From: a virus
Reading direction: 5' to 3' (one strand)
IMG/VR virus record: IMGVR_UViG_3300045996_004166
Location: 1 to 39,942 of that record
Length of the DNA stretch: 39,942 nucleotides
Of the stretch, positions 30,301 through 35,271 are shown piece after piece. Under the pieces are notes generated by a model. It saw only the letters and a list, made by a program, of their open reading frames with translations. It was not told the DNA's origin and searched no databases. Every line of letters starts with the position of its first letter. The stretch's first letter is position 1. Both the position numbers and the translations under genes were made by a program.

Positions 30301-30596
30301 CGTGCCCCGGGCACGGGCCGGGCACGGTCGGGCACGCTGGGCACGGTGTCCACAGGCACCGTGCCCCGTCAACGGGCACGCGGGGTTGCCGTCCAGTTGG
30401 CGCCGGGCACGGTCAAATCCCGCTCTTTCCGTCCATTCAGCGTGCCCCGGGCACGGTCGGGCACGCTGGGCACGGGGAGCGTGCCCGTCCAGTAACGGCG
30501 CCATTTTCAACGGTTTTACTGGACGGGCACGGTGGGTGTGCCCGAGCGTGCCCCGAAGAGCCGAAGCTAGGAAATACTTGACGGAACACCGTGCCC
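30301..30596. repeat. GGGCACG array (16 exact copies, both orientations)
   Basis: Forward GGGCACG at 30309, 30320, 30330, 30339, 30374, 30405, 30449, 30459, 30468 and 30525. Reverse CGTGCCC at 30301, 30360, 30441, 30480, 30547 and 30590, and variant TGTGCCC at 30537. Many forward copies follow each other by 9-11 bp (about one helical turn). The block from 30301 to 30346 is repeated with an 11-bp shortening at 30441-30475. Such spacing suggests cooperative protein binding on one face of the DNA. Confidence 0.85.
30480..30531. repeat. 16-bp inverted repeat in the array
   Basis: CGTGCCCGTCCAGTAA at 30480-30495 matches inverted at 30516-30531, with a 20-base spacer containing ATTTTCAACGG. The outer part is the GGGCACG motif, the inner GTCCAGT occurs again at 30391-30397. 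It could be the main initiator site or a cruciform. Confidence 0.7.
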
Positions 30597-30846: not shown

Positions 30847-31458
30847 ATGGCGGGGAGAGGTCGATCGAAGGCGCAGGCGCCCGCGGGCGGCGTGCGGATA
30901 CTGAACCAGGAGACGGTGCTGGTCTCGGTAGACGCGGTGCGCCCGCACCCGCGGAACGTGAACGAGGGCGACCGCGCGGCGATCCGTGAGTCGCTGAAGG
31001 AGAACGGATTCTGGGGCTCGCTCATCGTGCAGCGATCCACCGGCTACATCCTCGCCGGCAAACACCGCTGGGAGGAGGCGACGGCCGCCGGCTACGCCGA
31101 GCTGCCGGTGACCTACGTGGACGTGGACGACGCGACCGCGCTCCGGATCATGCTGGCCGACAACCGCACCGGGCGCCTCGGCGCGGACGACGACGCGGCG
31201 CTCGCGGCGCTGCTCCAGGAGATCGCCGCCGACGCCGGCACGCTGGCCGGGACGGCGTTCGACGATGACTCGCTCGCGGTGCTGCTGAAGAGCCTGGAGC
31301 CGCCGCCCCCACCGCCACCGCCCGAGGAGCCGGGCGGGAAGGACAACTACGTGGAGCAGTACGGCGTGGTGGTGGTGTGCGCGAACGCGGCCGACCAGGC
31401 GGCGACGTACGAGCGCCTCCGTGGCGAGGGCTTCAACTGCAAGGTGGTGACGACGTGA
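30847..31458 (+). CDS. ParB-like (ParB/Srx fold) protein
   Basis: A 203-residue protein from ATG 30847 (an upstream in-frame ATG at 30754 is possible but lies in the G-run). Motifs: VSVDAVRPHPRNVNEGDRAAIRESLKENGFWGSLIVQ, then GYILAGKHRWEEATAAGYAELPVTYVDVDDATALRIMLADNRTG. The 'GxxR' type motif (AGKHRWEEA) and the 'ADNR' motif are typical of phage ParB-like proteins, which bind CTP or cut DNA in known members. A proline run precedes the last 40 residues. It may act on the adjacent GGGCACG array. Confidence 0.85.
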   Translation: MAGRGRSKAQAPAGGVRILNQETVLVSVDAVRPHPRNVNEGDRAAIRESLKENGFWGSLIVQRSTGYILAGKHRWEEATAAGYAELPVTYVDVDDATALRIMLADNRTGRLGADDDAALAALLQEIAADAGTLAGTAFDDDSLAVLLKSLEPPPPPPPPEEPGGKDNYVEQYGVVVVCANAADQAATYERLRGEGFNCKVVTT

Positions 31459-32342
31459 GAGTCGAGGTCCACAACCGCTGCAGCGACTTCGAGAGCTTCC
31501 GGGCCGCCAGCGTCAAGAGCCTCTTCAACGTCGAGGCCGGCTGCAACTTCGACCTGGTGGCGGAGCTGCCGGTGGAGGCGGAGCCCTGGTCGCTGGGCGT
31601 GATCGTCGGCCCATCCGGCAGCGGCAAGACGTCGCTGGGCCGCCAGCTCTTCGGGCCCGACGCCATGTGGGCGCCGGCGTGGCCAGGCGACCGCCCGCTG
31701 GTGGACGCAATCGCGCCGGACAGCGACTTCAACGACGTGACCGCGGCGCTCTCCGCGGTGGGCCTGGGCTCCGTCCCCGCCTGGCTTCGCCCCTTCCCCG
31801 TGCTCTCGAACGGCGAGCAGTTCCGCGCGAACCTCGCGCGCCTGGTGTGCGAGGCGCCGGAGCGCGTGGTGGTGGACGAGTTCACCAGCGTCGTCGATCG
31901 ACAGATCGCGAAGGTGGGGGCGCTCGCGTTCCAGAAGGCATGGCGCCGCACGCCCGGGCAGTGCGTCCTCCTGTCCTGCCACTTCGACGTCCTCGACTGG
32001 CTGGAGCCGGATTGGGTGTTCGACACGGCCAAGGGGGAGTTCCTGCGCGGGAGGGGGCTTTGGCGACGGCCCCGGATTGAGCTCGAAGTTCTCGAGACGA
32101 ACTGGAGTGCGTGGCCGCTGTTTGAGCCGCATCACTATCTGAAGCTCCCGCGGATGCCGTGCTCGACCTGCTACGTCGGGCTGGTCGACGGGGAGCCGGT
32201 CGCGCACCTCGCGGTCAGCTCCAAGACGCCTGGTGGTGATGCCCGAGTGGCAGGGCGCGGGGGTGGGGATGCGCTTTCCTCAACCACATCGCCCAGCGGT
32301 ACCTCGACGGGGAGGGGCGGCTGTGGATCGGGCGCCGGCTGA
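31455..32342 (+). CDS. ABC-type ATPase with broken GNAT extension, first part
   Basis: A 295-residue frame, GTG overlapping the previous stop. Walker A GPSGSGKT (52-59), signature LSNGEQ (117-122), Walker B RVVVDE (137-142): a full ABC ATPase. It then runs into a GNAT-like start (LFEPHHYLKLPRMP, YVGLVDGEPVAHLAVSS). After about base 32223 the frame loses sense and stops at 32342. The acetyltransferase part continues in two other frames (see the fused call). This ATPase-acetyltransferase fusion is a known conserved architecture (COG2401). Confidence 0.85.
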   Translation: MRVEVHNRCSDFESFRAASVKSLFNVEAGCNFDLVAELPVEAEPWSLGVIVGPSGSGKTSLGRQLFGPDAMWAPAWPGDRPLVDAIAPDSDFNDVTAALSAVGLGSVPAWLRPFPVLSNGEQFRANLARLVCEAPERVVVDEFTSVVDRQIAKVGALAFQKAWRRTPGQCVLLSCHFDVLDWLEPDWVFDTAKGEFLRGRGLWRRPRIELEVLETNWSAWPLFEPHHYLKLPRMPCSTCYVGLVDGEPVAHLAVSSKTPGGDARVAGRGGGDALSSTTSPSGTSTGRGGCGSGAG

Positions 32343-32575
32343 ACACCCTGTTTCACACCTCGCACCCGGGGCTGGCGGCGGCGCTCCGGCGCGACCCGAA
32401 GTGGCGACAGGTCAGCGCGGTCCTGCATGGGTCGAACAAGGCCGCGAGCGCGCGCTCCATCAACCGCTCCACGCGGGCGCGGGTGAAGTCGCGGGGTGAG
32501 CAGGCAGGGTACGGCGGGCACTTCCGCGCGGTGCAGGGATTCCGGTACGTGGGCGAGAGGAGGCCGGGGTGCTGA
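31455..32575 (+). pseudogene. ABC ATPase-GNAT fusion gene, interrupted by two +1 frameshifts
   Basis: Restoring two single-base excesses gives one continuous protein of about 372 residues. After SSKT (about 32223-32230, one extra C) the frame continues as LVVMPEWQGAGVGMRF, and after that (TTT at about 32267-32269, one extra T) as LNHIAQRYLDGEGRLWIGRRLNTLFHTS up to GERRPGC and TGA at 32573. VVMPEWQGAGVG is the acetyl-CoA loop of GNAT enzymes. Either the gene is decayed, or the two indels are sequencing errors, or frameshifting occurs. Confidence 0.8.
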
Positions 32576-33084
32576 AGGTCTACGTGTACGGCCGGTCCAC
32601 GACTCCCGCGGTCGCGGTGTCGATCGAGGCGGTGCGCGCCGCCCGCGCCGTCCTGGTCGACGAGCCGGCGGCCGCGGACGTGGCGGTCGCGCCGCTCCTC
32701 ACCCGCACGCTCGCGCCGGAAGAGTACGCGGCGCCATGGCTGGGGACGCTGATCTTCCACCCCTCGCTGCTCCCGCGCCACCGCGGCCGCGACGCCATCC
32801 GCTGGGCCCTCTCCCAGGGCGAGACGTACACCGGCGCGACGTGGTTCTGGGCGGCCGAGGGGCTGGACACCGGCGACATCTGCGAGCAGGAGGTGCTGGA
32901 GATCCAGCCGAGCGAGCGCCCGCGCGAGTTCTACGAGCGCGCCGTCGTGCCCGCCTGCGGACGGCTGCTCCTCCTCATCCTCGCCGACCTGCAGGCGGGG
33001 CACGTCCGGCGCCGGCCGCAGCGTGAGGAAGCAGCTACGTACGAGCCGCCGTTCCCGCGCGCGGCCGCGGCGGCGGCCGGCTGA
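32569..33084 (+). CDS. formyltransferase-family protein
   Basis: A 171-residue protein, GTG overlapping the upstream gene's end. It carries the formyltransferase core: GTLIFHPSLLPRHRGRDAIRWALSQGETYTGATWFWAAEGLDTGDI, with His64, the SLLPRHRG loop and Asp100. The Asn two before the His, part of the usual catalytic trio, is Ile here. Family members transfer a formyl group from 10-formyl-tetrahydrofolate. Substrate unknown; with the ATPase-GNAT and ParB-like genes it may modify phage DNA bases. That is inference. Confidence 0.8.
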   Translation: MLKVYVYGRSTTPAVAVSIEAVRAARAVLVDEPAAADVAVAPLLTRTLAPEEYAAPWLGTLIFHPSLLPRHRGRDAIRWALSQGETYTGATWFWAAEGLDTGDICEQEVLEIQPSERPREFYERAVVPACGRLLLLILADLQAGHVRRRPQREEAATYEPPFPRAAAAAAG

Positions 33085-33569
33085 TGGGACACCGCGGGCC
33101 CCCGCCGGAGCCGACCCGGCTGAAGCTCCTGAAGGGGAATCCCGGCAAGCGGGCGCTGAACGATGCGGAGCCGCAGCCGCCTGCGAAGGCGCCGCCCTGT
33201 CCCCCGGAGCTGAGTGACCTGGCGAAGAAGGAGTGGCGGAGGATTTCCCGCCTGCTGCTGGAGCTCGGTCTGCTCACCGAGATTGACCGCGCGGCGCTCG
33301 CGGGCTACTGCGACGCGTACGCGACGTGGATCAAATCGGGTGAGGAGCTGCAGCGCACGCCGCTGGTGATCATTTACAAGGGCCTGCCGATGCAGTCGCC
33401 GTACGTGGCGATCCACAACGCCGCCGGGAAGCAGATGCTCCAGTACCTCCAGCAGTTCGGGTTGAGCCCCAGCTCGCGCTCGCGCGTGAGAGTGGATAAG
33501 CCCGAAGCCGCCGACGAGCTCGACGAGATCCTGGCGCGGGGGAGGAAGCGTGGCAGGCGGTCCGCGTGA
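33084..33569 (+). CDS. terS: terminase small subunit (P27 family)
   Basis: A 161-residue protein, ATG sharing a base with the previous stop (TGATG). The start RGPPPEPTRLKLLKGNPGKRALNDAEPQPPAKAPPCPPELSDLAKKEWRRI is the P27-type small terminase signature. Then helices (LLLELGLLTEIDRAALAGYCDAYATWIKSGEEL) and a basic tail (ILARGRKRGRRSA). It recognises phage DNA at pac or cos and hands it to the large subunit. The large subunit starts within its 3' end (20-bp overlap). Confidence 0.93.
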   Translation: MGHRGPPPEPTRLKLLKGNPGKRALNDAEPQPPAKAPPCPPELSDLAKKEWRRISRLLLELGLLTEIDRAALAGYCDAYATWIKSGEELQRTPLVIIYKGLPMQSPYVAIHNAAGKQMLQYLQQFGLSPSSRSRVRVDKPEAADELDEILARGRKRGRRSA

Positions 33570-35271
33570 TCCGACGACCGCCTACGCGCGGAAGGTGGTG
33601 GCCGGGAAGATCCTCGCCGGCCGACTCGTGCGCCTGGCGTGCGAGCGTCACCTTCGCGACCTACAGCACGGTGAGCTGCGCGGGCTCCACTTCGACGTCG
33701 AGGAGGCGCAGGCCGCAATCGACTTCTTCGGCCTCCTCACCCTCCCCGAGACCGAGGGTGAGCCGTTTGACCTGGAGCCCTTCCAGCAGTTCATCGTCGG
33801 GAGCCTGTTCGGGTGGATGGGGCCGGACGGGTACCGGCGTTTCCGCATCGCGTACGTCGAGATCGGGAAGGGGAACGGCAAGTCACCGCTCGCGGGGGGG
33901 ATCGGGCTGCGCGGCTTGGTGGCGGATGAGGAGAGGGGCGCACAGGTCTACTCCGCCGCCACAACGCGGGACCAGGCGAAGATCGTCTTCAGCGACGCCG
34001 AGCAGATGGCGCAGGGTTCACCCGCGCTTGCGCGCCGGCTGGTCTTCACGGTCAACAACATCGCGCATCCAGAGTCCAACTCCTTCTTCCGGCCGGTGTC
34101 TTCCGAAGCGCGGGGGCTCGACGGTAAGCGGGTGCATATCGCGCTGATCGACGAGCTGCACGAACACCCGTCCGCCCTGGTGGTGGACAAGATGCGCGCG
34201 GGCACGAAGGGGCGCCGCCAGGCGCTCATCTTCGAGATCACCAACTCCGGCTACGACCGCAACTCAGTGTGTTACCAGCACCACGATTACAGCGTGAAGG
34301 TGCTGGAGGGGGTGCTGGAGAACGACGCTTGGTTCGCGTACGTCTGCCAGCTCGACCCGTGCGAGGCCTGCCGCAACGAGGGGAAGACGCAGCCCAGCGA
34401 CGACTGCGGCGAGTGCGACGACTGGCGCGACGAGGCGACCTGGGAGAAGGCGAATCCCTGCCTCGACGTGAGCGTCACGCGCAAGTACCTGCGCGAGCAG
34501 GTGACCGAGGCGGAGGGGATGCCCGGTAAGGAGAACATCGTCCGCCGGCTGAACTTCTGTCAGTGGACGGAGCAGGCGCAGCGGTGGCTCTCGATGGAGC
34601 TGTGGGACGCGAACGGATCCACGCCGCGGCGCCTCAATGGTCGCCGGTGCTGGGCAGGGATGGACCTGGCGTCCAGCGACGACATCGCGGCGTTCGTGAT
34701 GGTGTTCCCGGGGTTCGAGGGCGAGGAGGAGTACTTCGACCTGCTCTGCAAGTTCTGGATTCCCCAGGACAACATCCAGAAGCGCGTGAGGAAGGACCGC
34801 GTGCCCTACGACGTGTGGGTTCGGCAGGGGCTGATCACCGCTACCGAGGGCGACGTGATCGACTACGATACGATCCGGGCCGACATCAACGGACTGAGCG
34901 AACTGTACCAGATCGAGGAGATCGCGTTCGACCGATGGGGCGCGCTCGACATCACGGCGAAACTCACGCAGGACGGGTTCACGGTGGTGCCGCACGGGCA
35001 AGGGTTCGGCTCGATGGCAGCGCCGACCAAGGAGTTCGGGACCGCCGTCAAGCGTCGCCGCCTCCGCCACGGAGGCAACCCCGTGCTCCGCTGGATGGCG
35101 AGCAACACTGCCGTGGAGACGAACGCGGCCGGGGATCAGAAGCCGTCGAAGGAGCGTTCTACGGAGAAGATCGACGGGATACCCGCCGCGATCATGGGGC
35201 TCGGCCGAGCAGTCATTGCGCCGAAGAAGAAGAAGTCCGTCTACGCCACCCGGGGGCTGCAATCGCTATGA
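33550..35271 (+). CDS. terL: terminase large subunit
   Basis: A 573-residue protein, GTG start overlapping the small subunit. ATPase motifs: Walker A-like EIGKGNGKS (104-112), Walker B HIALIDE (195-201) with ELHEHPSALVVDKM after it. A cysteine cluster (CEACRNEGKTQPSDDCGEC) lies between. The nuclease part has WAGMDLASSDD and EEIAFDRWGA with acidic metal ligands. It matches the HK97-type terminase family. It packages DNA into the prohead through the portal. The packaging strategy cannot be told from the sequence alone. Confidence 0.95.
   Translation: MAGGPRDPTTAYARKVVAGKILAGRLVRLACERHLRDLQHGELRGLHFDVEEAQAAIDFFGLLTLPETEGEPFDLEPFQQFIVGSLFGWMGPDGYRRFRIAYVEIGKGNGKSPLAGGIGLRGLVADEERGAQVYSAATTRDQAKIVFSDAEQMAQGSPALARRLVFTVNNIAHPESNSFFRPVSSEARGLDGKRVHIALIDELHEHPSALVVDKMRAGTKGRRQALIFEITNSGYDRNSVCYQHHDYSVKVLEGVLENDAWFAYVCQLDPCEACRNEGKTQPSDDCGECDDWRDEATWEKANPCLDVSVTRKYLREQVTEAEGMPGKENIVRRLNFCQWTEQAQRWLSMELWDANGSTPRRLNGRRCWAGMDLASSDDIAAFVMVFPGFEGEEEYFDLLCKFWIPQDNIQKRVRKDRVPYDVWVRQGLITATEGDVIDYDTIRADINGLSELYQIEEIAFDRWGALDITAKLTQDGFTVVPHGQGFGSMAAPTKEFGTAVKRRRLRHGGNPVLRWMASNTAVETNAAGDQKPSKERSTEKIDGIPAAIMGLGRAVIAPKKKKSVYATRGLQSL

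Follow-up and report, generated by a model that had tools for sequence, protein, structure and literature searches.

The window analysed in this study, an IMG/VR virus record of 39,942 bases, carries a cassette of three genes directly ahead of the terminase genes (Table 1). They encode a ParB-like protein, an ABC ATPase followed by the sequence of a GNAT acetyltransferase domain (ABC-GNAT), and a formyltransferase-fold protein (FT). A first-pass annotation of this DNA had placed a ParB-fold protein, an ABC ATPase and a formyltransferase-like protein ahead of the terminase, and profile searches now back each of these three assignments. Just 5' of the ParB gene, at 30308-30475, the unit CGGGCACGGT is repeated in tandem in two short arrays, with 4.0 and 2.9 copies; these are the repeat array mentioned in the first-pass annotation.

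Table 1. Features of the cassette and its neighbours in the window.
Feature	Position	Strand	Evidence
ParB-like protein, 203 aa	30847..31458	+	PF02195 3.6e-6; PHROG 723 2.4e-35
ParB_N domain of ParB-like protein, aa 33-106	about 30943-31164	+	
C-terminal TAIL module of ParB-like protein (EQYGVVVVCANAADQAATYERLRGEGFNCKVVTT)	31348..31455	+	phrog_28816 1.6e-11, aa 168-202
GTGA overlap, ParB stop and ABC-GNAT start	31455..31458	+	sequence
ABC ATPase ORF, GTG start; enters first part of GNAT, then out of frame	31455..32342	+	PF00005 2.5e-6; phrog_11143 8.6e-113
GNAT-domain lesions: 32-nt deletion at 32226/32227 and 1-nt insertion near 32277	32226..32278	+	nucleotide alignment
Out-of-frame GNAT remainder: RLVVMPEWQGAGVGMRF, then LNHIAQ...FHTSHPGL...GYGGHFRAVQGFRYVGE	32227..32575	+	translations
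FT, 171 aa, GTG start; IFHPSLLPRHRG	32569..33084	+	PF00551 1.7e-21
FT catalytic positions; no Asn two residues before His	His64 at 32758; Asp100 at 32866		
Terminase small subunit (neighbour, outside cassette)	33084..33569	+	PF05119 1.6e-26
Terminase large subunit (neighbour, outside cassette)	33550..35271	+	PF20441/PF03354

The last ~36 residues of the ParB-like protein in the window form the TAIL module, which Mu-like phages encode separately, as a micro-gene of ~45-60 aa. The 4-nt overlap between the stop of the TAIL and the start of ABC-GNAT is also found in most of 74 parsed relatives, and the GTGA overlap in the window suggests translational coupling of the two genes. When the whole ParB-like protein was searched against cultured phages, the listed matches that extend through the TAIL were carriers of ABC-GNAT (EastWest and the AnClar group), and the remaining listed matches ended at about residue 150. 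Some of these latter phages, from Gordonia, carry a fusion of the ParB domain with a DNA methyltransferase. Against an anti-phage defence library, the ParB-like ORF matched PADLOC MTase_II (3.7e-11), a match that reflects a ParB domain seen fused to DNA methyltransferases; the other matches were weak or generic ABC matches. A ParB domain is also known to accompany phage DNA modification by CmoX (PMC12783734). The cassette resembles the ParB-methyltransferase fusions, the CmoX neighbours, DndB and DpdB in that a ParB_N-like domain adjoins modification enzymes. Unlike those ParB partners, however, the ParB-like protein of the cassette bears the TAIL, which was seen only beside ABC-GNAT in these searches. 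One TAIL micro-gene, in a Porphyromonas phage (L006 7876-8004), is annotated as 'acr candidate', although it has the look of an ABC-GNAT TAIL and not of an anti-CRISPR.

The ABC nucleotide-binding domain is complete in the window (PF00005, phrog_11143), with Walker A (GPSGSGKTS), signature (LSNGEQ), Walker B/D-loop (VVVDEFTSVVD) and H-loop (SCH) all present, and its ORF is 73% identical to those of the relatives L016 and L017. In relatives, ABC-GNAT is a single ORF of about 360-410 aa in which the GNAT domain is in frame with the ABC domain, and the family conserves Walker A, signature, Walker B and H-loop together with the GNAT CoA-binding motif QGAGVG. The AlphaFold model of L016 (mean pLDDT 79.7, pTM 0.55) comprises an ABC domain at residues 1-206 (Z 15.8) and a GNAT domain at residues 206-375 (Z 14.8 to 1y9k, the only PDB row with a GNAT fold among the matches listed, the rest being filled by ABC). 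The fusion of ABC ATPase and acetyltransferase claimed for the window by the first-pass annotation stands only in part: GNAT sequence can be recognised, with 66-100% identity to relatives, but it is spread over three successive frames and does not form an intact fusion with the ABC domain. The frame that opens at 31455 runs to ~32226, the next covers 32227-32278 and the third continues to 32575. Nucleotide alignment with L016, L017, L029, L037 and L049 traces these shifts to the two lesions listed in Table 1. Because the out-of-frame pieces still match relatives at 100% over 17 aa and at 66-70% over ~90 aa, the lesion should be either recent or an assembly error. Exact searches for the lesion junction and for the intact flank matched no other contig, and a megablast of the window end against cultured phages gave no match. 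The ABC-GNAT ORF is intact in almost all of 80 relatives, but decay in nature is plausible, since a few other copies are damaged as well: L058 is split in two, L178 and L181 are truncated, and L201 (3096-3470) and L202 (1700-2074) retain a deletion remnant, a single ORF that runs from the first ~30 residues of ABC-GNAT straight into the end of FT. The cassette copy in the window is probably inactive, provided that the lesion did not arise in assembly. With its GNAT disrupted, the window phage may carry no DNA modification of the kind proposed below.

The cassette is widely distributed and its parts are closely linked. The ABC domain of the window matches 61 records of cultured phages, whose hosts range from Gordonia and Rhodococcus to Pseudomonas, Porphyromonas, Leptospira, Pasteurella and Streptococcus. 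In IMG/VR it has 391 confirmed stretches. A search with FT alone found ABC-GNAT directly upstream in 77/77 testable loci, these being the loci with room upstream among the best 80, a set that favours close relatives of the query. A search with the TAIL alone, for which a 6-sequence alignment was used because a 16-sequence alignment had too few conserved stretches, found ABC-GNAT or its remnant downstream in 39/39 loci. The linkage is obligate in the loci covered, and the ABC-GNAT and FT distances are correlated (r 0.61; maximum 0.27 in 2000 permutations). The window itself has a ParB protein with TAIL directly upstream of ABC-GNAT. Thus, co-occurrence of the three genes, whose lack the first-pass annotation had named as a result that would speak against it, has now been searched for and proves strongly conserved. 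More distant ABC-GNATs have ParB and no FT, as in Jace, EastWest, Pmp13, LE4, Streptococcus phages and planctomycete contigs, which indicates that FT belongs to one clade; because ABC-GNAT without FT is common in these more distant phages, FT appears to be dispensable for the core activity. In the planctomycete contigs (L213-L217) a TAIL-bearing ORF stands with a divergent ABC-GNAT. In one phage (L050 119-4703) a ParB-TAIL/ABC-GNAT system with FT and a second system of the divergent type lie in tandem.

The FTs are about 160-250 aa long, and PF00551 is the sole family that they match above threshold. Profile searches found neither carrier nor aldehyde dehydrogenase domains in the FTs, nor Formyl_trans_C, the tRNA-binding part of Fmt, in FT. 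The best solved sequence relative of FT is 1s3i, the hydrolase domain of 10-formyl-THF dehydrogenase (1.5e-23), and the same structure is the top fold match for the model of the window FT (pLDDT 94). The FT family profile likewise matches 10-formyl-THF dehydrogenase at 5e-47 as against 2e-27 for Fmt, a difference of about 20 orders of magnitude. It had been remarked earlier that the usual Asn near the catalytic His is missing and that the chemistry of the protein may therefore differ. Both remarks agree with our results: the window FT has I-F-H in place of the N-x-H of amine formyltransferases, and it is of the 10-formyl-THF dehydrogenase type by sequence, profile and fold. This Asn is absent from all 112 distinct FTs (a count that leaves out 9 ORFs not fitting the search pattern), its position being taken by Gly (73), Ile (34), Val (3), Ser (1) or Ala (1), and 112/112 retain both the Ser and the D-x-G that holds the catalytic Asp. 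A database name that makes FT a PurN-type purine synthesis gene was rejected, given the profile ranking and the lack of Asn-His-Asp in the scored FTs; against NCBIfam PurN, FT scores far under the cut-off.

In 10-formyl-THF dehydrogenase, Ile104 occupies the position at which FMT, ArnA and GART have the catalytic Asn (PMC4388273), the same substitution as in the window FT. This enzyme passes its formyl group to a 4'-phosphopantetheine thiol (PMC4388273, PMC6802093), and HypX, a related enzyme, is a proposed maker of formyl-CoA (PMC6802093). FT has the fold and the His-Ser-Asp in common with the N-terminal hydrolase domain of ALDH1L1 and the N-terminal domain of HypX. Unlike ALDH1L1, it is free-standing, with no carrier or aldehyde-dehydrogenase domains, and its long form has Gly at the Asn position. 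CoA thioesters are the substrates of GNAT enzymes, so that a thiol-loading FT beside a GNAT makes a coherent pair, and we infer that FT provides the GNAT with formyl-CoA or a thioester like it. The main rival to formyl-thioester supply is amine formylation after the GNAT step, in which the same DNA-modification system would have its GNAT install an amine-bearing group (e.g. aminoacyl or glycyl) on the base and FT would then formylate that amine as Fmt and ArnA do. The order of the genes, ABC-GNAT then FT, fits such a second step, His and Asp are kept in FT, and other members of the fold do formylate amines; however, with the Asn of amine formyltransferases missing from every scored FT and the profile preferring 10-formyl-THF dehydrogenase over Fmt so strongly, we consider this order of events doubtful. 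FT could also act as a 10-formyl-THF hydrolase, altering the folate pool to serve phage nucleotide synthesis, and be linked to the cassette only by chance, since the related dehydrogenase domain has hydrolase activity (PMC4388273). Neither the linkage to ABC-GNAT in 77/77 loci nor the correlated divergence is expected of a pool enzyme, and this explanation seems to us very improbable.

Further evidence on function comes from the Mu-like phages that carry the cassette. Com is the translational activator of mom, and in Mu both com and mom lie at the right end, after the tail-fibre genes. The cassette takes the same place in Pseudomonas phage Komp_PAO1_1, which has Gam-like and transposition proteins: there it lies after the tail-fibre assembly gene, where the late region ends. 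Matches to the Mu transposase C-terminal family occur in 14/21 records with a stand-alone TAIL and in 0/12 with ParB-TAIL. Com (PF10122) is encoded directly upstream of the TAIL in 21/21 Mu-like stand-alone-TAIL records, in 20 of them above the curated cut-off. Komp_PAO1_1 has a Com match as well (2.7e-22), whereas the same search found none in 12 ParB-TAIL records or in the window record. The com gene typically overlaps the start of the TAIL and ends about 100-270 nt 5' of the ABC-GNAT start.

Com of Mu recognises a short hairpin ahead of mom and binds it at the loop motif CC(N)2-3GAG (PMC6483171). A hairpin of the form NNGCC-N2-3-GAGCNN occurs in the corresponding region of 31/64 stand-alone-TAIL loci, where dinucleotide shuffles give an expectation of 1.15, as against 0/56 ParB-TAIL control loci, and the window phage has no such hairpin. 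The stand-alone-TAIL loci that lack it are mostly of the Porphyromonas/faecal type, with no Com in those tested. Among 23 hairpin sequences including that of Mu, 98.9% of the cells of the 4-bp stem are paired, and in 9 cells both partners of the pair have changed, a number as high as which occurred in 0/500 shuffles (mean 2.4). The C-G pair that closes the loop is invariant among them, as it is in a published in vitro selection for Com binding (PMC6483171). Part of this conservation may reflect coding, because the hairpin sits inside the com coding region. Tandem Com-type hairpins with different stem sequences, 20-22 nt apart and about 170-235 nt 5' of the ABC-GNAT start, are found in L035, L057, L061, L065, L067, L079, L081 and L094, an arrangement that suggests binding of two Com molecules.

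The Mu-like cassettes therefore have in common with Mu com-mom the right-end place, a Com gene upstream that overlaps the next ORF, the hairpin and a GNAT-fold enzyme. They differ by the addition of the TAIL, the ABC ATPase and FT, and the window phage differs further by having no Com. Homology of the cassette GNAT domain with Mom was considered and rejected, as Mu Mom shows no detectable similarity to ABC-GNAT (hhalign probability 0.3%); a search run without a positive control also found no Mom match in 22 Mu-like cassette-bearing records. The control circuit is thus shared, whereas the enzyme differs. The first-pass annotation had left the choice between base modification of phage DNA and control of packaging. 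Its first alternative is the best supported, by the linkage and by the com-mom locus, a position that favours DNA modification over packaging control. The cassette does lie directly before the terminase genes in the window, in AnClar and in some others, but the Mu-like phages carry it at the right end after the tail fibres, far from the packaging genes, and in Jace, EastWest and others it lies elsewhere, so that a role in packaging is extremely unlikely and this part of the earlier proposal was abandoned.

Taken together, these comparisons of sequence and gene order make it likely that the cassette hypermodifies phage DNA in the manner of Mu Mom, though built from different parts. In the scheme we propose, the ParB domain and the TAIL would bring the ABC-GNAT protein to DNA, and the ATP-driven ABC ATPase dimer would open the DNA or travel along it, exposing a base. 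The GNAT domain would then move an acyl group from a CoA thioester onto the base amine, and the modified phage DNA would be protected from restriction. In the FT-bearing clade, FT would load formyl from 10-formyl-tetrahydrofolate onto a thiol, most simply that of CoA, and the resulting formyl thioester would supply the GNAT donor, by analogy with HypX and 10-formyl-THF dehydrogenase, or FT might instead tailor the product. In Mu-like phages, Com would activate translation of the cassette genes. The most specific version of the scheme, in which FT converts 10-formyl-THF and CoA to formyl-CoA and ABC-GNAT puts an N-formyl or derived group on a DNA base, is offered as a tentative possibility. Several points weigh against the DNA reading or its link to Com. 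The GNAT target could be protein or RNA instead; control by Com shows common regulation, not common chemistry; and neither the window phage nor any ParB-TAIL record tested has Com or its hairpin. If the cassette acylated or formylated a host protein or tRNA, for example in host takeover, ParB and DNA would be incidental, but the ParB/TAIL linkage and the com-mom locus with its Com and hairpin point to DNA, and FT is without the tRNA-binding Formyl_trans_C domain. Many phage GNATs do act on proteins, Rac among them (review PMC7824862), yet we regard this explanation as unlikely, and DNA hypermodification remains the reading we favour.

According to PMC7824862, Iyer et al. predicted in 2013 that an ABC ATPase-GNAT system, exemplified by phage pT24, acylates a DNA base, and pT24 itself is among the matches of the window ABC. 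The cassette has in common with that predicted system (PHROG 11143) an ABC domain joined to a GNAT in phages and a predicted base acylation. It differs from the prediction as cited in that one clade has the obligately linked FT, the Mu-like members have Com and an RNA hairpin, and the window copy is frameshifted. Our literature search, in which the 2013 prediction was represented by the citing paper PMC7824862, turned up no paper that connects FT, TAIL or Com with the ABC-GNAT system. Within that coverage, the links of FT, TAIL and Com to ABC-GNAT appear to be new, while ABC-GNAT as a DNA modifier had already been predicted. These links join the 2013 computational prediction to a well-studied genetic switch, since a single RNA regulator, Com, appears to control two unrelated DNA-modification machines that occupy the same place in the genome. 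If the formyl-CoA route is true, it would be a previously unknown path from one-carbon folate to DNA modification, one that Mu-like phages would have placed under the com RNA switch instead of mom. Such use of folate one-carbon units in DNA hypermodification would broaden the chemistry known for phage DNA. Komp_PAO1_1 and AnClar, which are in culture and have intact cassettes, offer DNA in which LC-MS could look for a possibly new base. The current records of both differ from our assignments. In Komp_PAO1_1 the Com gene (L004 7695-7826; PQ287647.1 22105-22236) is unannotated, the record giving a different frame, and the FT of Gordonia phage AnClar and its relatives (L005 2312-2962) is annotated as 'tRNA-methyltransferase', which is at odds with its formyltransferase profile.
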